Shown piece after piece: positions 5,467-43,600 of a stretch of DNA of 64,000 nt. The stretch's first letter is position 1; each line of letters starts with the position of its first letter. The stretch comes from Gossypium raimondii (taxonomy: Eukaryota > Streptophyta > Magnoliopsida > Malvales > Malvaceae), in NCBI RefSeq assembly GCF_025698545.1, contig NC_068575.1:57111980-57175979 (forward strand), given 5' to 3'. The notes under the pieces were generated by a model, which was not told where the DNA came from, ran no database searches, and saw only the letters and a list, made by a program, of their open reading frames with translations. The translations under genes were made by a program, and so were the position numbers.

Positions 5467-8400
5467 TCAGTAGTATGACCCAGAACCACCCCCACCACCC
5501 ATGTAACTGCTACCACCCATACCACGACTGGAGTACATGGATGAGTAAGAGCTACCACCAACCTGCCATGGAAGCAGAAAAAGAACATCGATATAGGCTA
5601 GTATAGTTTTTAAAATATCAAACAAAAGAAAGAAGGAAAAGGACATACACCAGATCCCCTAGGTATGTAATCACCACCATAACCAGAGGATGAGTACATT
5701 CCTCCAACATCACTGCTGCTAAAAGAACCTGAAAACCAGACCAAATGTAAGTCATTAAACCAGAAAACACCAACACTACGTCCACCCCACCCAGGAGGAA
5801 CCCCTCTTCTTTCAATTTTAACAAATCAGCAGCAACTTAGAACACACCTCCACCATAGCCCATGCCCTGACGACTGCCATATAGCCCATGTGAGGTCTGA
5901 CTAGATATAGAATTCCTGCTGCCACCGTATCCTAGATTGGATCTCCCAAGCCTATCAAAATAAGACAAAAGATAACTAAAGCTCCAGAACAAAGAGAATA
6001 AACACCAAAAAGCTCCTAAATAACAAACCTATCACCATATGCATCCACATATGGAGGAGCACCACCAGCAAGTTCATAGTCTAGACGAGCCCTTGAATGC
6101 CTCGGACCATCATCAGCATATCGTGGAGGGACATCATCCTGATTCAACAAGCAAGTACACGGCATAATCAGCTAGGAAATTGTTAAATCATATGCCAATG
6201 ATGACATAATTACTTGAAGGAACTGTGGGACCAACCATAACAGGATATGGCCTTTTTGAGCCAGAAATAGTGTCATAATCACGGCCACGCCCCTCACGAT
6301 AACTAGGAGGAGGTCTTTCAAATCTTTGGGCATATGCATCATCTCCATACGGTCTTCTCGCTGCATTACGAGATGTGGTTCTAGGCAAATCAAAGTAACC
6401 AGGGTTGCGAGAAGAATATTCTTCTCTATATGTGGATCGTCTATCAGGGACAACCCTAGATCCATAATCCATAACTTCTCTGCTCCTTGGAGGAGGAAGC
6501 TCATCACGTTGACTATATTCCCTCTTAAAGCTACCCTTTGGATATGGCATAACTGTCAAAAAAGATTGAAGTAAGAAATTTAAATCTCAAAAAATGAAGA
6601 ATTCAGGTAGACATGAAGCAGGATAGAGCTATACCAGGGGCTCTTCTGTCATAGGATCTAGAAGGGGGAGGTGATAAAGGTCTGCCTCTAGCTGGTGCAG
6701 ACATGAGAGGACGTCTATCTCTTAGTCCAACAGGCCTCTTTAGACTGGGTGGAGGGGCACGGCTACTAATTCCTCTCATCCCACGAGTAGCATAACCACG
6801 TGAATCAGGACGAACCCATGAACCCCTAACTACTCGTCCAGATCCACGCCCAGACCTGAAACTATCACGGCTGACGTTCTTACCTCTGCCTCTTTGATGT
6901 GGTCTCGATAACCTGGCTCTAACTTTGGCCTGAAATAAAAGAATAACCATTAGACAAGGTAATAGCTAAGTCATGTAAACAACATGGTACACCAAGAACA
7001 TTGACTAACCTTGATGTCACCTTCGCCCAACTCGGTATTATTAATGCTCTTAGCACATGTGACAGCAGCATCATGAGTATCAAATGTGACAAAACCATAA
7101 TCCTTCCTGTCAGCAGATGGCATGTTCCGGGCAAGTTCAATCTTTTCTATCTCCCCATACTTCTTCAGTAGCTCTCTAACGCGATCCTCATCCCAAGAAG
7201 GAGGCAGGCAATCAATAAATATGGTCCTAACCTGAAATTGGGAGAAAAAATCATCAAGCTCTCACAATAAGATACATTTATGATTTCCTACAAGCCCAGT
7301 AGTTCATGCCACCTAAAGCAAAAAAGAAAAACTGTTTTGTAGCCAACTACCTCTTGGCTTAGTGGCAAGAGGCTTGTGAGGCATGAGAGCTTGGGACCAA
7401 ACCATAGCAACCCAACCACAAATTATATTAGAAGAAAATTTGTTTTAGTAATTTACCTGTGCCATGATTTCATCACCTGGATCGATGAAGGAATCTGCAA
7501 AAGAAACCTTTGCAGGCCTATCAACCCCAAATAAAACATCTCTCCGTTGAAGACACTTAAAAGCATCCATCGCATCTGAACGGGATGCAAATTCCAAAAA
7601 TGCAAAGCCTCGATTCATTCCTTCATTGTTGCTGTCTTCGACCAACGTTAAGTCCTCAACATTGTCAACTCCGTAATGTTTCAACTTCTCTTTCAACTGG
7701 AACAACAGTCAATAACGAACACATGTTATCTACTTATAAACATTTACAAAGATGGCCCACTTGCTAGTGACCTTAAATAATCCCATGTACTTACTGCTTC
7801 CTTTGTCCATGTCTTGCATATATTACCCAGAAAAAGGGTGTCACTGTCTTGACTTGGGGTAACACCACACTGTTTTCCATTGATCTAGAATTGCAGTCAT
7901 TAGAACAAAATAGTTTTAAGTTTTAGAGTTGATCCATTTTGAAATTCAGAAAAGTAATATTATTGAAGAACAGAATAATTACCACGGGATTCCTAAGTTC
8001 AGTATATGCACGTTTTGCTTGTTCTATAGTTGCAAATCGCAAGAAAGCAAAGCCCTTGTTCTTCTTTGTTTGAGGGTTCATCATCAACCTAACTTCAACA
8101 ATTTCACCCACTTGGTTGAACACTTTCCTGATATCATCTTCGGTAGCATCCTTGTCTAAGCCCCCAACAAACACTTCAAACTCTTTACGCTTGCGTCTCT
8201 CTTGAACAACTTCATGTCGCTCTTCATGCTCGGTTGCATCATCCAAATCTGCATGCTCTGCTTCCTCCCCAGGATGCTCATCATCATCAGCATCACCTTC
8301 TACTTCAACTTCATGAATATCTTCGTCCTCACCATCCTGCTCCTCCTCAATCACTTCCTCTACTTCATCTTCCACTTCATCAGGATCCATCTCCTTCTCG

Positions 8401-9150
8401 TCATAATCCACCCCACCATATTCTTCAGCTTCATATTCAGGTTCATTATCATCCAATTCTAACCTCTCATCTTTTTCATACTCCTCCATAGACTCCTGTG
8501 AGTCATTCTCTTCTGCGACAAAGAAGGGGTATAATATTCAAGGCCGGTCAAGAAGCAATCACCTTAAAGCAGTTGATACGAAATTCTGATAGAAACAAAA
8601 ATATCTCAACAATCCAAATACTTGTAAAGATAATGATTGTGAACCTGGTAGATCCTCGATAAGGGAAATAAATGGACAAGGATATGTTTCTGTGATACCA
8701 AATATGATCCAACGGAAAGCAAAAACTTTATAACATGCTAAACTCGAGGAATAACCCACAAAACTACAGTAAAAGCTACAATTTTGTATAATAGCGACGT
8801 GCCATATAATTTTCAAAAATGCAGATGCCCACATCTATCAGATTGAAAGCAAATCAGATGAACCATAAGCAAACAAAAGACTTACTCTTCATCGAAACCG
8901 ACCCATTGGAATTCAAATTTAAACCGGTGTTTCCCTCCTCGATCACCTCTTTTTGTTCCGGAGTTGGTTTCTCATCAACCTTAACTGCCTCCACGACCTC
9001 CTCAACTGGAATTGAAGCCTCCTTTGCATTCACGGCCTCTTGTGCAGGCTCCGCTGGTGGATTCTCGGATTTAGATGCGCCTCTAGTGTTCCTCGGCGTT
9101 CTCTTTGAACCACCGGCCACAGCTCCTCTCTTCACCATTCTAGGAGGCAT
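5467..9150 (-). CDS. Three-RRM hnRNP R/Q-type RNA-binding protein
   Basis: Predicted 782-residue nuclear RNA-binding protein. Eleven exons fit with continuous frame and GT-AG borders: 9150-8886, 8512-7983, 7884-7795, 7696-7457, 7231-7010, 6929-6635, 6552-6236, 6138-6029, 5951-5848, 5728-5649, 5562-5467. Order: basic N-terminus (MPPRMVKRG), a long Glu/Asp-rich stretch (about 97-190), RRM1 about 199-276 (RNP2 VFVGGL, RNP1 KGFAFLRF), RRM2 about 281-360 (LFLGNI, RGFAFLEF), RRM3 about 377-455 (IFIDCL, DYGFVTF), then an RG/RGG- and Tyr/Gly/Ser-rich tail ending GGSGSYY. The layout matches the SYNCRIP/hnRNP Q-R family. In Arabidopsis it is closer in length and in its long acidic N-terminus to At2g44710 than to LIF2 (about 495 aa). 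This class binds RNA in splicing and chromatin-linked gene control; the specific role here is inference. A splice donor lies one base after the stop codon. Confidence 0.93.
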
Positions 9151-9345
9151 TCTTTAGAAACTTAACGACTGAAAGATCAGAATTCGATAAAGAAGGGAAA
9201 AGGGATAATCGAAACTCCCGACGGAACAGGAAAAAATTAAAACCAACGGATTGATGAGAAATCCGAGATAAGTCGAAACGGAATCCAAATTAAATCTTCT
9301 AACTTAAATAGAAAGTGATTTAGAAAATATGTAAAATCGCAATGA

Positions 9346-9354
9346 AAACCCTAA
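9346..9354 (+). promoter_or_regulatory. Telo-box (AAACCCTAA) upstream of the hnRNP gene
   Basis: AAACCCTAA followed by CCCTAGG lies about 195 bp upstream of the hnRNP start codon, in its 5' UTR or proximal promoter. Telo-boxes are known plant promoter elements of genes for ribosomal, RNA-binding and growth-related proteins. Function here is inferred from position. Confidence 0.5.
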
Positions 9355-9429
9355 CCCTAGGTATGCGAAGGAAATTGGGGGGGGGTAACAATGAGGAAAA
9401 AGACGCGAACTTTGTTTTGGAACTCTATG

Positions 9430-10674
9430 TCTAGGGTGTGTTTAAATTAATACACGATACGAGGTTGATCTCCGTATTTATTTGGGATTTTTATCGAAAT
9501 AAAAAAAAATTCCAAAATATTAGGGTTGAAAATTATTTATTAAATTAATATGTTATTATCGAAGTAGGCCGTTTTTATGGGCTAAAAAAGTAAAAGTGCA
9601 TCAAAAGCTTTGCCTTAACAACTCTGTATCATCGGCCGAATAGTTGAATGTTTGTGCCTTCACCCAGTTTCAAATTCCCTTTTTCATATTTGCTTTCTTC
9701 TTTTTAAATATCTTGTTTGAAGCTTTTTCCTTTTTTTAAATTAAATGTTTTTCAGTTTTTATTTTATTTTTAATTAATAAATTCTCTATTTATAATTATG
9801 TAATTATATATTAAATTGTATATATCTATCATTACTTTAAATATATTTTATTTTTAAAATATCATTTATTTTATATATATATATATATGTACTGAAAATA
9901 TTGATATATGGAATAATTAATTGATTATATATATGGATGGTAAATTTTAGTATTATATATTTTTCTATGTCTATTTGAAATAATTGATTGAAATATTTCA
10001 TTTATAAAAATAATGGTATTTAAAATAATTTTATAATATTATAATTTATAATACCCACAATATAGGTGAAAATATAATGATATTTGAAGCAATTATTTGA
10101 AGTTTTCACATATAAAATATTAATATTTGAAATATTTCACATAAAATAATGATATTTCAAATAATTATTTTTATAATATTGGAATTTATCATGTTGAAAT
10201 ATAACGATATTTGAAATATTCCACATATAAAAATTATATTTACTAACAATAATTATATTTAAAATAATTAATTGATTTTATATATTAGATTTTACCATAT
10301 TTAAAATAATTATTTTATTTTATAATATTAGAATTTACCATGCTCATAATGTACATGAAAAATAAACAAATATTTGACGATAAAATTATATATAAAAATA
10401 ATTAATTTTAAAATTTAAAATATACTTAACATAATATATATTAAAATTTTATTTTCATTAATAATTACATATTTATTATTTTGTTTCTATAAATAATGAT
10501 TTATTAATTAAAAATAATAATTGGAAATAAAATAAAAATACTTAAAAACATTTAAATAGAAAGGCAAAACGCTTAAAGAAAATGAAAAAGACAAGCTGTA
10601 AACCATTTAGCTAATGATGTTGAGTGATGTAAACCTAAAAGAAATAGAAAGCCGCATGTTAACCTCTAAAACAC
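9430..10674. other. AT-rich intergenic sequence
   Basis: Very AT-rich, with many short variants of a TATTTGAAATATTTCACATATAAAA-like phrase (about 9960-10330) that suggest degraded short tandem repeats. A short AT microsatellite lies at about 9875-9888. No coding signal. Confidence 0.5.
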
Positions 10675-11345
10675 TTACAGCACATCTAGTTGTGAGGAAT
10701 GGAATAGGGTTCTAATCAGTAATTCAATTGTTTGATTGAATGGAATTGAATAAAGCTGTAATAGTATTCTTGCGTTTGGTTGAATGAAATAGATGTTGTA
10801 GTAACATAAGGGAAAAAGTTGAAATGACCAAAATACCCTTAATAGAATTTTTTTAAGTAGATAATTATTATTGTTATTAAATTTTAATAGTGCTATTATT
10901 AAATATAATTTAATCATATTTTAATATAATTATTATTAAATATAATTTAATAATATTAATTTTATTGTTCAATGATTGTTAAATGTTCATATAAATTTAA
11001 TTTAATATCTATAAATTTTAATATTTTAATTAAATTCTAATAATTTAGTAATATTTTAAATATATCTAATAGTGTAATTAATATATTATTTATAAAATAT
11101 GATTTATTTCCTAATAACTTTGTAAATGTTATGTCAAAAATAATATTTGAAAATAAATTAATTTAACATTTTATATTTAATATTTAATAATAAAATATTA
11201 TTTAACAATAAATTTAATTTTCTAAATTTAAAATAAATCTAAAAATCACATTTAAAATTATTTTATTATATATTTTATTTTGAATATAACCAACTGAATT
11301 TATTTAATATAAAGTGGGGAAAATATATAACCAAACAAAACATAA
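10675..11345 (+). mobile_element. Degenerate MITE-like element
   Basis: The 5' part (GAATGGAATTGAATAAAGC and the following text to about 10830) and the AT-rich middle match the reverse complement of the element at 18284-18945, including a shared AAAATACCCTTAAT phrase. The right end (CCAAACAAAACATAA) resembles a GTTTGG-type terminal inverted repeat. Left boundary and target duplication are unclear. Non-coding and non-autonomous. Confidence 0.5.
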
Positions 11346-12781
11346 TGGCAAAAGAATAGCCTTACCAAAATAAAGATTATAATAAAGAAAAATAAATGCA
11401 ATAATAAATAAAACCATTAGAGCTTTCTAGGGATCCTAATTGCCCTCAGTATTCACAATCTAATTGATCTTAAAACCATTTGAGCTTTCTAGAGGCTTCA
11501 TCTCTTTCTTTTCTTTAGAGTTTTATCTAGTTCTCTCTTCTTCTTTTTTCCTCTAATCCTCTCTTTTTATCATGTATCTCCGTCTCCAAATCCTTATCTC
11601 CACCTACTCTTTCAATTTTTTGTTTAGTTTGTCCTAAAAGCCCACCAAAACTTATAGATCCATGCATGCAAATCTCTCATTTGTTAATCTCCCACTGTCC
11701 ATCACAATTTTTTTTTTCTGATTTGGGTTGTTTTGTTTTGTTTTTTAAATTTCATTATTGTGTTTAGAACAAGTCAGAGTGAAGGATACCCCTTGTGTTG
11801 ATGCTGTGAAAACAGCATTGTTGGATGAAATCGAAGTTGATAAAACATGTAATCGTAACAATTGGGTTTCAATTTTTGTTTCTTCTTGATTTGTCTTCCG
11901 TAGCTATAATTCATAAACTGAAATCGTGGTTAATATGATGTTTTCGGGTTGGGGTATTTTTGGGGAAAAAATTGGTGGCTATTCGGTGAAAGGCTGGAAT
12001 GGCTATTCTTTAGTTGTAGCACGGAATGGGTATTCCGTGAGTGGCCGGAATGAGGCCGTAATACTACTCGGCCATTTCACTCATTCAATTAAACCAAACA
12101 ATGGAATAAAACTATTGCGCTAAATAAGGTATGAATGGAATAGCCATTCATGCCAACCAAACGCGTTGTTAGGGTATTTAAATTTATTAAATTTATTAGC
12201 TTTGATGACCCAAACTTTTGATATAGCAACATTTAATATAATTTTTTATTTATATTTATTGAAATTTTTATTAAACATTTCAAAAACATGTTTGAGATGT
12301 GTTTTAGTTTATTTAAATGTCTTTGAGTCAATCTAAAATATTTTTAAGTGTTTTAAACTAATTTTGCACAAGTTTGGGAAGTTGCATTGATATTGAGAGG
12401 AATTTTTATCGATAAAAGTAAGTCAGAGAGCTCCTCAAGCATTCCTCCAGCCTTTAACCGATACTTAGGAGGTCTTTCTATCGACGTAAGTCCACTAGAC
12501 TTTTACTGATACAAGTTTACTTCTACCCATACATCTTGTAAGTTGTATCGATACAAGTCTATTTACAATGCTTCCACTGGTTGTAAACAATCACACATTT
12601 TTTCTTTGTTATATCTACACATCAAGAGCAATTTAAAATACAAGAGATGAATATCTGAGCAATGAATTCAAAAGAAAAACATTCAATTGTTTATTCTATT
12701 CATTTTCTCTTGTACGCATTCATTGATAGCTTATTGTAATATCTTTTTATCACTATCAAATCTTGTATTTAGAGGTTCAAT
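11346..12781. other. Repeat-like intergenic sequence, no recognised gene
   Basis: A direct repeat (ACCATT-GAGCTTTCTAG) occurs near 11412 and 11472. A CT-rich run (11500-11620) and a CATGCATG (RY-type) string near 11661 follow. A GGAATGGCTATTC/GAATAGCCATTC-rich stretch ending CCAACCAAACGCGTTG (about 11990-12170) looks like the end of another TIR element. The part from 12400 to 12600 repeats TATCGATACAAG-like phrases. None supports a gene. Confidence 0.35.
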
Positions 12782-14040
12782 GTAACAGCCCGATTTTAGT
12801 TAAATCAAAACAGTAGTTTTGGAACCACAAATCCGAGGTTAAAAAATTATTCTAATATTATTTTTGGTACTTAAAACATGCAAATATTTATGTGTGAAAG
12901 TTTCGTGAAGAAATTTTACTGTTTGAATGCTTAATTCGGTAAAAAGGACTAAATCGCATAAAATATAAAAGTTGTGTTTTATAAGCTAAAGGTGTCTAAT
13001 AGCTATAGAACATTAAAGTAAAGGTCCTTAAGTAGTAAATAGGCCATTTATGAGTTATTGGATGATAGTGGAGTGGCATTTGGTGTAATTACTAATTTTT
13101 TTAATGGTAAAATAGTAAATAAGTAAATTAAAGATAAATTAAATAAAAAATTTACCAACCCATTTGTTTCATCTTCTCCACCGAAATTTTCAGAAAAATA
13201 GGGGTTTTGAAGCTTAAAATTTCAGCCACTTAATTCCTTTGCATGTAAGTGATTCCTTGTTCCGTTTTTATTGATTTTTATGTTTCCGGGATCGTTGCTT
13301 TGTAGTCTAGCTAGTCCATGCTTTAATTTTGAATCTGATAATGATTTTTTGAAATTCCATGGATGAATATTCAATCTTTTTGTTGTTTGATGATGAAAAA
13401 TAAATATTTGTTGATAGATTATCATATTTTATTAAGCGCTTTTTGAAAAAAAATGCTTATTATGGATTAAATTGTGAAATTTGTAAATTGGGGGTTGAAA
13501 TGTGAAATAAATAGAATTAATGGGCTGTTAAGGACCTAGGGAAGATTCGGCTATGCTTTGGTATGATGAAATTTTGTGTATTTTGTGTAGTTTTAAAATA
13601 GGAACTAAATTGTAAAAATGTGAAATTTTAGGGGCAAATATGTAAAATAGCCCTAACGTGTGTTTTGGATTAAATTGAATAAATAGTTGATTAAATAATT
13701 TGATTTTGATAATATATAGATCAAGATAAGTCGAGATTGAGATTAGATCGGGGAAAAGAAAAAGTAGACGAATAGTCGATAATTTCTATTCGAACAACTC
13801 GAGGTAAGTTCGTATAATTAGAATCGAACTTTCATTTAATTGCAATTGTATGAAATGAATATGTATATATATTCGAATTGAATGGTTGAACTAAACGATA
13901 TTGAATTGTCTAATTTGAAATGTATTGAGTAATACCAAACTCCGTTTGAACTATGGAAAATAGTAGGATACGAGTGACATGTCACTAGGGTTACCGTTTT
14001 GGTTGAGCTCCTACATTTGTTGCGGACTCACCACAGCTTG
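12782..14040 (+). mobile_element. LTR-like repeat block (truncated), TGTAACAGCC start
   Basis: Begins TGTAACAGCCCGATTTT. Its layout matches, in the same order, the reverse complement of the 17710 end of the next block: a start, the phrase on resting-state pasture-like AT text, an A-rich leader near 13140-13230, and a TAAGTTC-containing stretch near 13803. It stops where the next block begins. I read it as a fossil LTR or non-autonomous LTR-retroelement piece, probably Ty3/gypsy-related, old and broken. Family assignment is from memory of similar cotton repeats. Confidence 0.5.
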
Positions 14041-23357: not shown

Positions 23358-24193
23358 CATGGCCGGCTCATGTTATCTCTCGGCGCTGCAGCGTGCATAA
23401 ACTCACCATCTTTGAAAAATATGGAATAATCAAAAGATACCGTCAAAGAGTCATATGAATTACAAATTGCATTGTATTTTGTTTTTGAATAATTCATGAT
23501 TTACAACAAATAATATCCTTTCCAGGTGAAACAAAGTGGGGAAAAAGTAGTCATTTTACAACATGATCATGTCCGCTCATGTTATCTCTCGATATTGCAG
23601 CGTATAAACTCACCATCTTTGAAAAATATGGAATAATCAAAAGATACCGTCAAAGAGTCATATGAATTACAAATTGCATTGTATTTTGTTTTTGAATAAT
23701 TCATGATTTACAACAAATAATATCCTTTCCAGGTGAAACAAAGTGGGGAAAAAAGTAGTCATTTTACAAAATGATCATGTCCGGCTCATGTTATCTCTCA
23801 TACTGCAGCGCATAAACTCACCATCTTTGAAAAATATGGAATAATCAAAAGATACCGTCAAAGAGTCATATGAATTACAAATTGCATTGTATTTTGTTTT
23901 TGAATAATTCATGATTTACAACAAATAATATCCTTTCCAGGTGAAACAAAGTGGGGAAAAAAGTAGTCATTTTACAAAATGATCATGTCCGACTCATGTT
24001 ATCTCTCGGCGCTGCAGCGTGCATAAACTCACCATCTTTGAAAAATATGGAATAATCAAAAGATACCGTCAAAGAGTCATATGAATTACAAATTGCATTG
24101 TATTTTGTTTTTGAATAATTCATGATTTACAACAAATAATATCCTTTCCAGGTGAAACAAAGTGGGGAAAAAAGTAGTCATTTTACAAAATGA
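23358..24193. repeat. Four-copy tandem repeat, about 208-bp unit
   Basis: Four near-identical copies of a unit running from GGCTCATGTTATCTCTC to AAGTAGTCATTTTACAA. The ACTCACCATCTTTG landmark falls at 23401, 23608, 23816 and 24027 (periods 207, 208, 211). Copies differ mainly in a small segment around CTGCAGCG, where copies 1 and 4 share GGCGCTGCAGCGTGC and copies 2 and 3 are variants. The high identity implies recent expansion. No coding frame spans the array. Confidence 0.93.
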
Positions 24194-24798
24194 TTTCCTC
24201 TTCAATATAATAATCAATTAGTGAGAAAGTTGGAAATTCGGGTGGTTTTGTTTGTTTGCCTGATGGTGCCGAGAAACCAAACACGACTGCATTTTGCGTT
24301 ATGGAAAGATGAAGGCCCCGTTCTTTAATCTGGTTGAAAAGCACTTTTACACCCAAAAGTGCTTTTGGGTGAAAAGTAACAGAGAACATATTTCATTTGA
24401 GGCCAGTACACTAGCTTTTCTAAAGCACTTTTGGGCAGATGAAAACGCAGAAAATTTCTGCTTTTCCGGCCAAAAAGTGCTTCTTAACTGATCTTTTACT
24501 TTTTTAGCCCCACACACAAACTACTGCTGCTTCTTAGCTGGTCTTTTACTTCTTTGCTCTCATCTCTTCTCTCGCTGGTTCTTTGTTCCTCTGCTTCTTA
24601 ACTAACAAATATCACGTTTTTCTCTTTATTTTTGGACAACCACTTCATCTTCAAACTCAAAGAGCCTTTCATTTATATATTTTAACAACTTTAAATGGAT
24701 CTTTGCACCATATAAAATTGATCTTTGGCTGAGAAACTTATTATTACCTCATATTTCTTTAGTGAAGAAGAAGAAGGAATAAGAAAAATCCAACTTAC

Positions 24799-25022
24799 AG
24801 GAGTCTTAAGGTAGAGATATGTCCTATCTCCTTCGGTATATTACCAGTCAATTCATTCCACATGAAATGTCTTCCACAAACAAAAAGAGAAAAGGAGTTA
24901 GCTCTACTGGAAATTATGTGTCAAGAACATTTAAGATATAACAAACTCACAGTATTTTGAGGTGAGAAAGTTGGCCAAGTTCAGGCGCTAAAGTTCCAGA
25001 GAGATTCATATTTAGTAGCTGA
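24799..25022 (-). pseudogene. Captured LRR receptor-kinase exons (two LRR units)
   Basis: Two exons of exactly 72 nt each, the standard one-repeat LRR exon size, with intact borders: 25022-24951 (QLLNMNLSGTLAPELGQLSH) and 24870-24799 (FMWNELTGNIPKEIGHISTL). The sequence resembles the ectodomain of LRR-VIII-1 receptor kinases such as Arabidopsis At1g06840. Signal peptide, other repeats, membrane span and kinase are missing. Retained introns show that genomic DNA was captured. An ATG at 25135 opens a frame that runs through the adjacent intron into the first LRR exon (62 codons, hydrophobic N-terminus). Confidence 0.83.
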
Positions 25023-25289
25023 CTGCAATAATTATATATAGCAGACAGCATTAAGGACAAGCAGCAAAATTTTCCAGAATCAACAAAATGAAAAACGATT
25101 GAAAAGTGGAGCAGCAACCCTATCAGCAACCCCATCTCTCACTCACCGTTTTCAGTCAATCAAAGCCTATCTTCAAATCCAATTCCAATTCTTTGATTCC
25201 ATGATTCCAAGCTTAAGATATAAAAGAATGAATATATGAAATCTTACAAAAATAATAAAAAAAGGGTTGATGAGTTTCAATATACTAAC

Positions 25290-25366
25290 CTTGTTACTCC
25301 TCTGTAAATTGAAGCCCCTCTAGAAAATCCACTACTTTTCCTTCTAAGATGAGCAACATATTCTTG
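25290..25366 (-). pseudogene. Captured AP2-domain exon (AINTEGUMENTA-like type)
   Basis: The minus strand reads [20 protein letters not shown] then YRGVT(R) and ends at a good donor (ACAAG|GTTAGT). This is the linker and start of the second AP2 repeat of ANT/AIL/PLETHORA transcription factors. The break after GVTR is a normal exon border in that family. Only 77 bp are present; the DNA-contacting remainder (HHQHGRWQ...) is absent. No start codon is seen in frame upstream. It lies inside the TIR element, so it is a copied fragment and not a gene. Confidence 0.85.
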
Positions 25367-25482
25367 GCAGAGGAGGCGTGAGAGAAGAAAAGAATGTAAA
25401 AGGTCTTTTGACTGAGTTGATTTTTCTTTTTTGAAACAAAACTGAGTTAGATTTTCTTGAATGAAACAAAGGGACTAAAATC

Positions 25483-25577
25483 ATAAATATTAATTACATA
25501 AATATTAATTACAAACTTATAATTACATAAATATTAATTACAAACTTATAATTACATAAATATTAATTACATAAATA
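25483..25577. repeat. Short tandem repeat, about 29-bp AT-rich unit
   Basis: About three copies of AATTACATAAATATTAATTA followed by CAAACTTAT, inside the TIR element. Confidence 0.75.
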
Positions 25578-26133
25578 GAATTAACAAGAGATGCTATAGC
25601 TTCTAGTTTAAAGAATTCACTTTAAATTGTAAATGCTATTGTAAAATTTTTAGTATTTATATATTATCCTTTTTAAAACTTCAATCCAAATATATGTAAT
25701 ATTTTAATTTGTTAGTTTTATGTTTTCTATGTTATTTGAATATATAATATGAGTTATATATTCAAATACATTTTAAAATAAAATAATACAAATGTGTTAA
25801 AAGCATTAATTAAAATAAAAATAATTTTAATTACTTAGAAATATTTAAAATTAATATTATATATTAAAATATTAATAATAAGTTATAATAAAATTTTTTA
25901 TATTTTTGCTAAAATATCATAATATTAACTAATTTGAACATTATTTAAATACATATTTGTTACTTTATAATATAATGTCTAAAATGGACATTTTATTCTT
26001 CAAAAGCACTTTTTAACAGCAATGCCAAACACTCAAAATTTTCAAAAGCACCTCTTAAAAGCACTTCTAAAAAGCACTTTTCCACAGCACTTCTCAAAAG
26101 CACTTTTTAAAAGCAATGAAGAACTGACCCGAA

Positions 26134-32920: not shown

Positions 32921-33178
32921 TATTACAAAAATATGCAGTTACCATGCTTAGGTATTGGGTTGATATGTTCCATGTTTAGAATATTACGAAAATATGCAGT
33001 TACCATGCTTAGGAATTGGGTTGATATGTTAAGTTCCATGTTTAGAATTTTGACTTGTATATAGATAGTAGTTTCCTTGTAATATAACTCGATCATAGGC
33101 TTAATTATCTATACTTGTATGTATATATTCATGTCTAATAATCAATGAGAAATCAATCTTTTCTCTCTATTCTTTACA
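32921..33178 (+). repeat. 5' LTR of the copia element
   Basis: 258 bp from TATTACAAAAATATGC to TTCTTTACA. It contains an internal direct duplication of AATATGCAGTTACCATGCTT (starts about 64 bp apart). Confidence 0.92.
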
Positions 33179-36100: not shown

Positions 36101-37550
36101 TTATGAAGAATCTGCACTTCACCCTCATTGGCAAAAAGCTATAGATATAGAATTACAAGCTTTGGAACGTAACCATACTTGGAGCATTGTTTCTCTTCCT
36201 ACAGGACAAAAGCCTATCGGTTGCCGGTGGGTTTATAAAATAAAGTACAATTCTGATGGATCGGTCGAACGTTATAAAGCTCGTCTTGTTGCCAAAGGTT
36301 ACACGCAAGTTGAAGGAATTGATTACCATGAAACATTCTCACCAACGGCAAAGTTAACTACACTTCGATGTCTTCTGACTATTGCTTCTGCTCGGGGCTG
36401 GTATACTCACCAGTTAGATGTGCAAAACGCCTTTTTACATGGTGCATTCCAAGAAGTTGTTTACATGACTCTTCCACAGGGACTTCGCCGTCAGGGGGAG
36501 AATTTGGTATGTCGGCTGAATAAATCCCTTTATGGACTTAAACAGGCTTCACGTAATTGGTTCTCCATATTTTCCATCGCTATAAAGCAAGCTGGTTATA
36601 AGCAATCCAAGGCTGATTACAGTTTATTCACAAAGATACAAGGTACATCTTTTACTGCATTACTCATCTATGTTGATGATATTTTATTAACGGGCAACAA
36701 TTTACAAGAAATTAGCCAACTTAAGCAGACCTTACTTAGGCAATTTCTCATCAAAGACTTGGGCTCATTAAAATATTTTTTGGGTATTGAATTCTCACGA
36801 TCCAAGCAATGCATTTTTATGTCCCAACGAAAATATGCACTAGATATACTACAGGATGCAGGTTTAATTGGGGCCAAACCAGAAAGTTTTCCTATGGAAC
36901 AACAAATAAAGCTCGATGCAACCGACGAGGAATTACTTCACGAGCCAACTAAATATAGGAGACTTGTTGGTCGTCTCATTTACTTAACAGTAACACGACC
37001 AGATATAGTGTATGCCGTACATATGCTCAGTCAGTTTATGGGAGAACCACGGATTCTTTCGAATTGAAGGCTTATTGCGATTCAGATTGGGCAAGTTGTA
37101 GTATGACTCGACGATCTATTTCAGGATATTGTATATTTCTTGGATCTTCTTTAATCTCATGGAAATCAAAGAAGCAGGCGAGCGTTTCGCGATCATCTGC
37201 TGAAGTAGAGTATAGAGCAATGGCAAATGCTTGTTTAGAGATTGCATGGCTCCATTATATCCTACAGGATTTGGGAGTGACAAGAACAAGACCAGCAAAA
37301 TTATTTTGTGATAATCAGTCAGCACTACACATAGCAGCGAATCCGGTTTTTCACGACTGTACAAAACATATAGAGATCGATTGTCATATTGTACGTGAAA
37401 AGCTACAGTCCGGACTTATTAGACCATATTATATTCCGACTAAAATGCAGTTGGCAGACATTTTTACAAAGGCTTTGGGTCGGGACCAGTTTGAAAATCT
37501 GAAAAGCAAGTTGGGAGTTCAAAATATTTACTTACCAACTTAAGGGGGAG

Positions 37551-37808
37551 TATTACAAAAATATGCAGTTACCATACTTAGGTATTGGGTTGATATGTTT
37601 CATGTTTAGAATATTACGAAAATAAGCAGTTACCATGCTTAGGAATTGGGTTGATATGTTAAGTTCCATGTTTAGAATTTTGACTTGTATATAGATAGTA
37701 GTTTCCTTGTAATATAGCTTGATCATAGGCTTAATTATCTATACTTGTATGTATATATTCATGTCTAATAATCAATGAGAAATCAATCTTTTCTCTCTAT
37801 TCTTTACA
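37551..37808 (+). repeat. 3' LTR of the copia element
   Basis: 258 bp, same ends as the 5' LTR and the same internal duplication, about 98 percent identical. It directly follows the polypurine tract. Confidence 0.92.
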
Positions 37809-37813
37809 TGTTT

Positions 37814-38783
37814 TTTGGTGATTATTCGATGTTAATTGTAAATTTTATACTCCTAATCCTTTAAATTCATATTTTAATGTTTAATAGAACAATTGAGAAC
37901 AAAATGAGCGAAATTTGGCGCGCCGGAGCAAGTTGAAGGAGCCACACGGGCCACACCTTTTCACACGGCCAGATAACACAATTGTGTGAGTCACAAGGGC
38001 ATGTGGTAGACCATGTCGATTTCATGGGATTATGCATTGAACAGCAAAACATCATGATTTTTAGGTTTTTTAGGCATTCGAAGAGGTATATATGACAAAA
38101 ATAAAAAGATAAGAGGGAGCCGTTAGAGAATATTCAAGAACAACTCGAAAAACACTATTGAAGTAGATTTCTGTTAAGATTGAGGATTCCCAATTGATTT
38201 CTTAGGAAGTTATCATGAATTTCTTTATTTCTTTCGGTTATACTGCATCTTGAATTTTTATATTCTTGAGCATGAACTAATTTTTTAAATACTTACGAAG
38301 ATAAACGTATGATGGATTCTGTTATTTGATTTTTATTTTACGCAATAAATACTTAATTTCATATTCTCAATCTGCTTATTTCTTGGTTTAGATATTTTTA
38401 CAATATTAATGCTGATAATAGGGAATAAGAATCCTGGTGGCTAGGGCGGAAGGATTCAAATATATATATATATCATCTCAGCAACTCTGAAAAACAACTT
38501 TAGTTGAAGTTTATTGCTAGGCTACCCAAATAAGGAAGATAATAAACTGCAGCACGAAATGAGCAACAGAAAACTCGATGTAAAATAGTTATCAGAAATT
38601 CCCATTACAAACGTCGTGAGGAGCCCCAGAAATACAATTTCAAACAGATAGAGGGGAAATTTTTGTTTTCTATATCGGTGCAGTCAATTGCAACTTATTT
38701 TACAATTAGATACAATACAACTTGGTTAGTTTGTTTGCTTATTTTGACTTGATTGCCGTGAGTGACTATTATCATGCATATCT
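37814..38783. other. Intergenic sequence
   Basis: No gene recognised. Contains a short AT microsatellite at 38459-38472. The last few hundred bases may correspond to decayed first-intron sequence of the kinase copy that follows on the minus strand. Confidence 0.35.
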
Positions 38784-39245
38784 TTAAGAATATTGAGTGA
38801 TAACAAAAGGTTTTAAACTGCATAATTCGTGTGTAATTCCAGCTATATAACTCAGCAACTCAGTACTAATCAACACAGAAACAACAGGACGTAGCTGCAA
38901 ATCATTATTGTAAAGCTTTTTAATAGCAACCTCGAAAGGCTCATCAGCAGGCTTGATTGTACCTTTGTAGATGCTCCTGAAGCCGCCTTTGCCAACCTTA
39001 TGTAGCAGATCGAAATTACAAGTGGCTTCCCTAAAATCTGAAAAAGAGAAGACCCTCAAATTGTGAGATTTTGCTTCGTACAACTCGGGTGTGTTATGCG
39101 GAGAAGCTGCTGAGCATGCGGAAGAAGACTTTGAGATCCGGTCAGGCCCTGAACATCCATCTGCTTTTCTTTCTCCTTTCAACATTGGGTCTGATCTTTG
39201 CCCCTGGCTTCTAAACTTGTCTTTGAAAGAGCGAAAACACTTCAT
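38784..39245 (-). pseudogene. Truncated first-exon copy of the PBL19/20-like kinase gene
   Basis: The frame of 153 codons matches exon 1 of the intact kinase gene at 44465 (MKCFRSFKDKFRSQGQRSDP; ELYEAKSHNLRVFSFSDFRE). The exon-1-equivalent part is 39245-38895; three codons around the PAGGKGEP loop are missing. The glycine loop reads GKGGFRSIYKG, so a core glycine is changed to Arg, while VAIKK is kept. The exon-1 donor CAG|GTATGT has become CAGCTACGT, so the frame reads on into former intron to a stop at about 38784. Catalytic-loop, DFG and C-lobe exons are not found. Homology continues into the 5' UTR and promoter (to about 39680). It is a head-to-head inverted duplicate of the intact gene. 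Confidence 0.85.
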
Positions 39246-39690
39246 TGCAGGATAGGATATTTAAAAGAGGTAGAAGAACAGCAGATGTTCTCCCACTAGA
39301 AAAAAAATGTACAAAATATATGTATGCTAATCAATAACTTAAATGACACAAAACAAAGAAAGGTGATTAACATGAAAATGGTTTAAGAGATTCCATAGTG
39401 GCAGCCATGGAAAAAAGCAGAAAACCAAACGTTCTAGAAAAATACAGCAGAAGTAAATATAAAAAATTAAAGTCGGTAGGAGATAGATAATAAGAGACGA
39501 ATTTACATTAACCAAAGCTAATGATCACTTTATAAACAACTATAAAGCTTTGCATTAAATGGAAACTTCCATAAAAGTTGCCATTTCATGCAAAGTTTTG
39601 CTTCGTCTTTATCCTCGGAAAAATCTGACGGCGTGGATTGTTTTCCAAAAGGAGTTGAAATTCAGATGACTGGGTCTCCCCTTCCGTAAC
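39246..39690 (-). promoter_or_regulatory. Duplicated promoter and 5' UTR of the truncated kinase copy
   Basis: Reading minus, CTCTTTTAAATATCCT before the ATG and the GTGGGAGAACATCTGCT segment match the leader of the intact gene (GCGGGAGAAGATCTGCT). Near 39590-39660 a segment with GAAGCAAAACTTTGC matches 43965-43985. The copied unit thus included the upstream exon and probably the promoter, so transcription is possible. Confidence 0.55.
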
Positions 39691-40277
39691 TAGGACTAGG
39701 TACTGTTGTATTATGAGACGGAGTTGACCTTTTACTTTCCATGCCTCTCTGTGTCACTCGGATTTTATAACCAGAAAACCAAAAAAAAAAGGAGCAGCCT
39801 TTGTTTCTCTCATTTTTTTGATCTTCTCCTATCTTTCGTCAATGCCAAGTAGGAAACTCCCTATCTCAATTCACTATAACAGCAGCTCCTATTGATCTGA
39901 TCTTGGTACCCAGTGTAATATTAAGAAGCTGACACAGATCCAAACTACCTCTCTAATTCATACACCTTGATGCGAAATAAATGCCATTTTCTTTCCACAA
40001 CTTACAGATACAGAAGCTGTAAATTCCCATCCCAATTACTAAAGAAGATAAAGCCAAGTTGCAAATTCAAGTTTTATTTGAAAACGATGCATTATCAATC
40101 AATAGACAATTACAAGGGATGGGAGGAAATATGGCTGTGTGATATCCCTGAAGTAAAAATGGGCTGAGTTTTGGACTTATATGATTTAAGTAAAAGTGGG
40201 TCAGAAGAATTGGGCTCATTTGAACCGACATAACCCATTGTTTAATCTCACCAACAAGTAAAATAGTAAGAAGCCGA
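39691..40277. other. Intergenic sequence
   Basis: No gene. The frame at 39967-40167 has no recognisable domain. Confidence 0.4.
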
Positions 40278-40285
40278 CACGATAC

Positions 40286-40633
40286 TAGACCTGTCCATGG
40301 GCCGGGCGGACAGTTCGCCCGAAATATGAGAGGGTTCGGGTAAAAATATAGGCCCGAAATGTGGGCTTAGATAAAAAAACGAGGCCCGTTTAAAAAATGA
40401 GCTGGGCTCGGGCTCAACTTTTTTGGCCCGAGCCCGACCTGAATATAATAAATATATATTTTATTTTTATTTTTTAATTTTAAAATACTTTAAAAATATA
40501 TTTTTTTATTTTTAAAATATTTTTTTTGTGTTTGTTAAAAATCGGGTCGGGCCGGGCTCGGGCTTATTATTTTTTCCTGGGTCGGGCCTGGGCAAAATTT
40601 TAGGCCCATATTTTGGGCCCATGGACAGGTCTA
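40286..40633. mobile_element. hAT-type MITE
   Basis: 348 bp with terminal inverted repeats TAGACCTGTCCATGGGC...GCCCATGGACAGGTCTA. It is flanked by an 8-bp target duplication with one mismatch: CACGATAC (40278-40285) and CACGACAC (40634-40641). The ends are GC-rich with many GGGCCGGGC/GCCCGAGCCC phrases; the middle is AT-rich. Non-coding. The 8-bp duplication and end sequence fit the hAT superfamily. Confidence 0.9.
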
Positions 40634-40641
40634 CACGACAC

Positions 40642-43600
40642 CCACCCCCATAGGATTTAGGAGCCAATTACACATTTTTTTAATTTTTATGAATTTGAAT
40701 AATAAAATATTATGAAAAGGTTCAAATGTAACATAAATAAAATAAAATCAAAACGTGTTTAATTTATGCCATAAAAATTATAAATTAAAAATTAAAAAGT
40801 GTTAAAATTAACTACTAAAAATTTAAGTTAAAAATTTGTTTGATATATTACTTAATTACAAAATTTAATTAGTTTTTTTATAAATAATAATTTTAAAGAT
40901 AAATGTTTAAAGGATAGTGTTAAAAGTATAAAATAATTAGAAAAATCCACATTAAATTATTAAGTATTTTCAACCTTTTTCAATTTGGATGATTAAACAT
41001 GCTTGAAAAAATTAAATTATTGAAAATATTAAATTTTTCAGCAAATTATGAAACAAGATGGACGTCATAATCATCAATGATCCACAAATTTTTCATAATG
41101 TTTCATTTTCACCAGCTAAAGATTGTATTTCACCATTTATCATCCACCAACTTTACTAATACTTTACCGATGATAAAATTTGAACTTAAAATAGATTTGA
41201 AAGGGGATTTACTCATGGCATTCACACATAGTGAAACTCCAAACTAACCGCTGACGAGGTATTTAGTTTATAAAATATAAAATCATTTAAGATTTTGTTT
41301 GGTAGTTAAGAATTTTAAATATTAAAATGTAATAATCATTTGTAAAATTTAATTTAATTATATAAATTATAATTTAAATATTAAAATAGAACCATTACAA
41401 ATTCAATTATAAAAGATTATACATTTGAATTTAATTTAAATATGAAAATAATTTTACATCCAATATAAGTATTATTAAAAGTGTTTTTCAAACCTAAAAT
41501 GTGAAAACTATAAATCTTCTTAAGGATTCAAAAATTAATTGTTTTGTATTGATAATGGATTTTAAAATGTTTTAACCCAAAACACTTATGAAAAGTCTAA
41601 TATTAATGGAACTTTGCTAGCTTTCATTACCTTCTAAAAAGGTTTAACCTATAAATTGATATATAAATTATACCATTTCCCTCACCTTGATACCTAAAAT
41701 TTTTAGTCACAGGTGGAATCGAACTAATTTTTCCTAAGTTAGTATCATAATTAAATCATCCATTAATCAAATCATTAAGTTTATTTAAAAATGTTTAATC
41801 TATAAATCGATACCTAAGTTATGCCCTGCACTTAAATTTTTCTTTTGACCACAAGTGATATATAAACTATTCTTATTACTCATTTTACACCAAAATGTTA
41901 TAACCGTTAAAAAAAATTAACCAATAATAGATCGTCACATCACATAAACTTTTCAAAAAATAATTCTTTTCATTCTTTCTTTTAGATCATTTCTCTCTCT
42001 TTTTTTCTTTCTTTCTTAATTTGTAATGTCTAGCAATGTTAAAAATGCTCGAAATTCACCCTCTCGAAACTGAGACATTGGTGATTATTTCTGTTTTTGA
42101 ATTTCACTGCCTCAACTTAATGAGATAAAAAAAATTATTTCATCCATCAAAACTAGTGTTCTCAAAATCAGACTAGTTGGACCGGGATCTGATCATAATA
42201 TAGGTCTGGAGATAGGGGTTGAACGAATTGACCTACGAACCAATACAAACTGATTGAGTTGAGCTAAAAAACCAGTTGAATTGATTTTCTTTATTTTAAA
42301 TATATGTATTTTATTTTATGAGTTTTTTAATAATTTATTTGATCGAACTAGACAAATTGATCAAACTGGAAACATGTGACTTGACCAATTTAACTATTAG
42401 TTTGATTCTAAAATTTTGATCAAAACTAAATGCTCACATTTGTTTAAGAAGCCCAAGACGAGAGGAAGAATATAAGAAAAATATATGAAGAGAAAATAAT
42501 GCTTTTTTGTCTTTGTTTATGAAAACAATTTTAATTGGTTATTTTAAAAAAATGAACATAATGATTTAACTAACGTTGAACTAACGAAGGTAAAAAATTA
42601 ATTTAGGTATTATTTGTGGTAAAGAAGAAAAAATGCTTAGGAACCAAAATGGCAAAACGATATAGTTTAGACACTTATTTATGAGAAAAGTTTTTTTAAG
42701 AGGCTTAACGGTTGAACTACTAGAAGTACCAATTTAAGAAAAACATAATTTATGTATTCTATGTATCAAAAATATATTTTAGATACCAAAATAAAAAAGA
42801 AATTATAATTGAAGTACTAATCTGCTATAAATATGGCATAAAATATGGTGGAAGAATTAAACCTGAGGGTGATATCCTGGGGCGGGTAACCCAAGCTTTT
42901 AAGAGAAAACAATAATAGATGAGGGTGCAGTGTAGGGTTCCAAAGAAGCAGGAGCAGGAAAAGGAAAAGAAGGGGAATTCTGGTTCAACGAATCAACGCA
43001 TCGGAAATGGTAGGTGATGATCATAAAAACCTTAGCAGAATTCATATTTTAATAAATTCAGCTTCAAGGACAAACTCAATTACCTTCAATATCTTAACAT
43101 TACAATTGTAATTTGCAAATCAAGCGTGAGTTAAAATAGCAGGCAAAACATTGAGTGAAATAAATTCAACCCAAACCAAGTTGTATTAGTGCTTACAAAT
43201 TAGTGGTATTAGTGCAATGTGTTTATTTAAGATTTTATAATTAAACCTAGTTGTAAGTTGTCAAAATCTCAAGCGGGGCCCCACACCATCTTCCTCGTGT
43301 TGACCACTAGTGTGTCTTGTTAAGACATGTCACGTTACTTCCTCAGTTCTTTCGATGTCAATGAATGGGTTTTCCCCCTTTTATGGCGAAAGGGATTTAT
43401 GTCCCTAAACAAAAGCAATTTTTTGTCCCTGTAATGCAATGCTGGCATCTTAGAAACTGTGTAATCCGATGCATTTTATTGCTTTTTCAAGTTCATAAAG
43501 CAAATCCTGGGATGCTTAAAAAGAGAGTTTGGGGATTATGAACTTAACCATCATGCACCAATGGAGATTCTGATAGATAGGATCCTGTTTTGTTCTTTTC

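Follow-up and report, generated by a model that had tools for sequence, protein, structure and literature searches.

A single-copy PIF/Harbinger-like element of Gossypium raimondii with an internal patch matching three unlinked loci

Introduction

Uptake of host gene sequence by PIF elements has been described in plants. The grapevine PIF elements treated in PMC2528002 include some with captured exons and introns, and Gisby and Catoni (PMC8903248) describe Pack-PIFs in maize and rice, as well as Pack-TYPE elements that hold DNA from several loci, the latter being a feature of Pack-TYPE elements that is not tied there to PIF specifically. For animals, the account in PMC8277862 gives microhomology of 1–36 bp (median 2) at one or more breakpoints in 67.6% of Pack-TIRs; single-copy Pack-TIRs are ascribed to gap filling, and most captures lie near the parental copy, 56.9% of them within 15 kb. 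At the excision sites of rice transposons, filler DNA has been credited to synthesis-dependent strand annealing (PMC4423477).

Herein, we describe a non-autonomous element of Gossypium raimondii in which short fragments of host DNA lie between two parts of a PIF/Harbinger transposon. The window, that is, the whole stretch of 64,000 nucleotides that was analysed (G000:C11:57111980-57175979), lies on contig C11. Genome searches covered 750.8 Mb in 281 contigs.

Results

The initial annotation of the window had proposed a TIR element without a transposase at 24314-26130, flanked by a GAA duplication. Both ends were verified, as were both copies of GAA (24311-24313 on the left and 26131-26133 on the right), which gives an element of 1817 bp. 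The terminal sequences, GGCCCCGTTCTTTA on the left and GGGTCAGTTCTTCA on the right (reverse-complemented), agree at 10 of 14 positions, and AAAAGCACTTTT-type repeats are present inside both ends. The TSDs of PIF/Harbinger elements are 3 bp long and are mostly TTA or TAA; the TSD of this element is also 3 bp long, with two identical copies, but reads GAA. According to Table 1 of PMC4423477, the TIRs of PIF/Harbinger start with GG(G/C)CC. This start is found at the left end, GGCCCCGTTC, and the right end, GGGTCAGTTC, deviates from it at one of the five bases. GGGCCAGTTC is found in several relatives. An Rfam scan of the window returned 0 matches.

Other copies in the genome share the ends of the element. 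When the whole element was used as the query, 40 of 1664 first-look candidates were scored, so the counts of relatives are lower bounds: at least 59 matching pieces were found, comprising the element itself, the donor locus on C3 described below and 57 matches to the end regions. The left end alone matched at least 46 pieces, itself included, with 40 of 104 candidates scored. Eleven long copies were compared, nine of them cut at both ends; L059 and L069 overrun the fetched stretch on the right. The nine measure 5569-7186 bp, and seven of them have a TTA or TAA duplication (L010 and L067 have an additional A on the left side), while L065 has none and L066 has CTA. With TTA or TAA in seven of the nine long copies for which both flanks are available, GAA departs from the PIF/Harbinger consensus. 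The CTA on both sides of L066 (C6:12.82 Mb) is a second off-consensus target in the family.

The long copies hold pieces of the ORF1 and transposase genes. In L009, PF12776 (E 9.6e-24) marks a Myb/SANT ORF1 and PF13359 (E 2.7e-7) the C-terminal part of DDE_Tnp_4, and a piece of L010 matches the N-terminal part of the same domain (PF13359, E 2e-8). In the open stretches of the eleven long copies, a GAIDGTH motif was found in four and a Myb-like motif in eight. As the long relatives hold these Myb/SANT ORF1 and DDE_Tnp_4 pieces, the element can be placed in PIF/Harbinger. Of the family and the autonomous relative that the initial annotation had suggested looking for, the family was found; its long members have coding pieces of ORF1 and transposase, and no intact copy was recognised among the eleven.

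Two further features of the family were observed. Within its 5' part, L009 (C7:21.96 Mb) has a stretch of ~1.9 kb (L009:4818-6694) that is also found in L059 and partly in L010; the other long copies are without it, and parts of it recur on C1 and C11. It resembles the variable 5' regions described for grapevine Pifvine-3 (PMC2528002). In addition, 22 family loci were examined for unexplained internal sequence, and from these one stretch was picked in L054 (C10:41.25 Mb), a non-autonomous member of ~1.6 kb, in which the internal positions 763-1391 are not covered by the long copies. This stretch was considered as a fresh single capture and rejected: because 20 other pieces in the genome match it, it is repeated sequence.

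The ends of the element and an internal stretch of it are collinear with the long relatives. The left end, comprising the TIR and subterminal sequence (24314-24599, plus strand), is 96.8% identical to L010 and to L009 (9 mismatches each), 93.5% to L059 and 75-80% to a further eight of the long copies. The element also keeps an internal stretch of 206 bp (25366-25571, plus strand), missed by the initial annotation, that lies upstream of ORF1 in L009 and differs from both L009 and L059 at five positions, tandem-repeat gaps not counted. The right part with the right TIR (25573-26130, plus strand) matches L009 in two pieces, at 91% and 94%. Relative to L009 (C7:21.95 Mb), ~3.0 kb between the left end and the internal stretch is replaced by a patch, and ~2.98 kb between the internal stretch and the right part is missing outright at 25571/25573, with nothing filled in. 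The exact parent element was not found in the genome searches, in which the closest left ends reach 97%.

The patch, or captured block, spans 24600-25368 (~770 bp) and is wider than the exons that it contains. Its three pieces all lie on the minus strand. Donor A, at 24600-25125, comprises 526 bp of an LRR receptor-kinase-type gene (C3:25260698-25261223) and differs from the donor locus at seven positions (98.7% identity). Donor B, at 25131-25206, is 76 bp long, has no recognised coding sequence and matches C4:5504654-5504728 at 93%, with four mismatches and one gap. Donor C, at 25218-25368, is a 151-bp fragment of an AINTEGUMENTA-like (AIL) AP2 gene (C6:2310303-2310453), with three differences (98.0%). 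Thus the claim that intron-containing fragments of two unrelated genes are carried in the same orientation is borne out by donor loci on C3 and C6, whereas the description of a two-donor chimera overlooked the piece from C4. Judged by these matches, the three donor loci are unlinked to one another and to the element, and the donor exons do not lie adjacent in one host gene.

Besides itself and its C3 donor, the A block matched an 80% relative elsewhere on C3. The C block matched C6 at 98% and three shorter stretches elsewhere at 81-95%, and for the B block C4 was the only match in the genome search. Since B stands at 93% and A and C at 98-99%, B may have been copied from a different allele or from a copy missing from the assembly. 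In genome searches of the assembly, the chimeric block had no match other than itself. The element contains host gene sequence with parental gene loci elsewhere in the genome, which is what defines a Pack-TYPE element (here, a Pack-PIF). A MITE is a short, high-copy, homogeneous derivative formed by internal deletion; we rejected this identity for an element of 1817 bp with an internal block that has a single match in the assembly.

The two LRR exons had been correctly located between 25022 and 24799. They are 72 nt each, at 24951-25022 and 24799-24870 on the minus strand, and lie within donor A. At the C3 donor locus one ORF has an LRRNT_2 domain just upstream of the copied stretch; from this match and the general look of the LRR exons, the gene is a putative LRR receptor kinase. 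A weak match to ALE2_N (E 0.00097) at the same locus is under its cut-off. The C6 donor gene has two AP2 stretches and is presumably AINTEGUMENTA-like by its signatures, although WRI1 was the best of five PDB matches and the donor may be a WRI1-like gene instead. The AP2 exon had been drawn at 25366-25290: the AINTEGUMENTA-like piece and its 3' limit stand, but the exon is 5'-truncated and starts at 25367. The introns retained in the captured fragments disfavour a spliced-RNA template.

Both gene pieces read on the minus strand of the window, opposite to the element's own genes. The truncated AIL exon keeps its splice donor and is followed by an intron, and it has no splice acceptor of its own. 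If spliced, it would join the LRR exons in frame. There is no ATG in the open stretch preceding the AIL exon, and no sign of function was seen.

Five joints can be read in the element. At joint 1 (element to A), the 12-mer TGCTTCTTAACT at 24592-24603 (plus strand) also occurs at 24478 in the element's left end, and in L009 and L010, and AACT is common to it and donor A. The 12-mer is possibly a re-copied tract; alternatively, a 3-bp deletion was followed by a blunt joint. At joint 2 (A to B), GCAAC at 25126-25130 (plus strand) is part of a second CAGCAACCC at 25124-25132, which repeats the 9-mer of 25112-25120. Under the re-copy reading, the tract and B have CCC (3 bp) in common. At joint 3 (B to C), the 13-mer AAGCTTAAGATAT at 25209-25221 (minus strand) recurs unchanged on the same strand at the donor locus on C4, at 182 bp and ~257 bp from the near and far ends of the B fragment, respectively. 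A hit of this kind arose by chance in 2 of 5000 Markov resamples when the surrounding 300 bp were used, in 1 of 300 for the whole B locus and in 6 of 300 for the four loci together, although the sequence pools searched for the filler were wider than those resampled. Because donor A also holds an overlapping 11-mer, the source of this filler is uncertain.

Joint 4 (C to element) has GGC (3 bp) in common, and joint 5, the unfilled deletion, has AAAT (4 bp). Random joints simulated between the same sequences reached 3 bp at a frequency of 7.0-7.7% and 4 bp at 2.4-2.6%. Read post hoc, each of these statistics is modest; together, the shared bases and re-copied tracts fit template switching.

Divergence from the donors was used to date the capture. 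Between the element and donors A and C, 10 of 677 bases differ (1.5%), which, at a general rate of 7e-9 substitutions per site per year that is not specific to the species, would place the capture at about one million years ago. Donor B, at 93%, would imply an older date. The left end diverges by 3.2% from its closest copies and by 6-25% from the other nine long copies.

Two repeats elsewhere in the window were recorded. At 23358-24194, about four units of 208 bp (96% matches) stand in tandem; this array ends 116 bp to the left of the TSD of the element. At 32931-33028 and 37561-37658, 4.6 kb apart, an identical 32-bp tandem consensus suggests local duplication.

Discussion

For the mosaic described here, with its donors, its joints, the single match of its chimeric block and its intact ends and TSD, we consider it probable that an internally deleted PIF/Harbinger element had its gap repaired by copying, the template being switched to three unlinked loci in turn. 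A break or an excision gap would have arisen inside a longer parent element. The growing strand would have departed from the element at ~24599, copied 526 bp of the LRR receptor-kinase-type gene on C3, moved on to 76 bp at the C4 locus and 151 bp of the AIL gene on C6, and re-entered the element at 25366. The switches may have been aided by matches of 3-4 bp and accompanied by short re-copied tracts. Such a process could be described as abortive gap repair or as synthesis-dependent strand annealing in which the template is switched. The transposase region would have been lost in a second deletion of ~3 kb, at 25571/25573. Either deletion may have come first, and the repair may have taken place at the present site or before the last jump. 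A fuller version, with a single repair of at least five template switches among C11, C3, C4 and C6, re-copied tracts at three joints, and a putative minus-strand spliced AIL-LRR fusion expressed from the element, we consider very unlikely to hold as a whole.

Gisby and Catoni favour another model for Pack-TYPE elements, with Pack-PIF, CACTA and hAT examples (PMC8903248), in which host DNA caught between two family copies is carried along when both copies move together as a single element. The window element fits this model poorly, and we consider such an origin quite unlikely here: the pieces are only 76-526 bp long, come from three other contigs, and lie between two parts of one element rather than between two complete ends. 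Moreover, four end or subterminal words of the family were searched for over 6.5-9 kb at each donor locus, and none occurs there. At E up to 0.01, BLAST of the donor loci against the family found 10 weak matches, none at C3, one at C6 and nine at C4, the best with E 6e-5. Among 60 resamples of the C4 locus, only one equalled it in the number or strength of family matches. Five matching stretches were read, and their A+T content was 91-97% for the four at C4 and 62% for the one at C6. Control stretches of 6.5 kb, taken from the window away from the element, all matched the family (8/8, with 1 to 97 matches each); their best E values ranged from 0.003 to 1e-13, several being far stronger than those of the donor loci. 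Because the C4 stretches are A+T-rich and all eight controls also match, we read the donor-locus matches as A+T-rich background, each one unproven. Two stretches of the window, 7001-13501 and 37001-43501, had 97 and 37 weak family matches (best E ~1e-13); these are probably A+T-rich sequence, possibly old family remains.

The fragments could also have been acquired in several rounds of repair or transposition, with the intermediates since lost. The two separate deletions relative to L009 and the unequal donor identities (98.7, 98.0 and 93%) speak for such a history, but A and C are similarly diverged (7/526 and 3/151), the three pieces abut with short joints, and genome searches with the A, B and C blocks found no intermediate; we regard it as unlikely. 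An assembly artefact or chimeric contig, for which no supporting point was found, is extremely unlikely: A and C differ from their donor loci at several bases, the joints lie inside an element with a matching TSD and intact ends, and the right flank, the flank searched, has no second copy in the genome.

Gap repair with template switching has parallels in published systems. The single-copy Pack-TIRs of animals described in PMC8277862 are alike in having filler within a TIR element, short microhomology at the joints and an origin ascribed to gap filling. Those elements are from animals, and most of the captures lie near the parental copy; here the donors are on other contigs, which counts against the gap-repair reading. 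The rice excision sites of PMC4423477 likewise have foreign segments ascribed to synthesis-dependent strand annealing; those fillers are 1-123 bp long and lie at excision sites, whereas the patch here is ~770 bp, has three parts and lies inside a retained element.

Among plant elements, the Pack-PIFs of PMC8903248 are likewise non-autonomous members of PIF that have TIRs and a TSD and have taken up genic DNA. The Pack-TYPE pipeline described there dropped singletons, and this single-copy element would fall outside its clustering filter; it fits better with the single-copy Pack-TIR kind than with clustered Pack-TYPE elements. The transduplications of Pifvine-3 (PMC2528002) are also PIF elements with exons and introns of host genes. 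In those elements a long 5' region, separate from the regions of ORF1 and the transposase, is described as housing the foreign DNA, whereas the window element has lost its transposase and holds a three-part patch.

The initial annotation had held such a chimera to be less ordinary. Since capture by PIF elements (PMC2528002, PMC8903248) and multi-locus Pack-TYPE elements (PMC8903248) are in print, the element is less unusual than that. Exon capture by PIF, multi-locus Pack-TYPE elements and an origin by gap filling have each been published already, and what is known of the class is unchanged. The notable point is that the donors and joints are cleanly readable. Two donors are close enough for the joints to be read base by base, and the element is therefore a useful test case, for PIF, of gap repair with template switching against the fusion of neighbouring copies.
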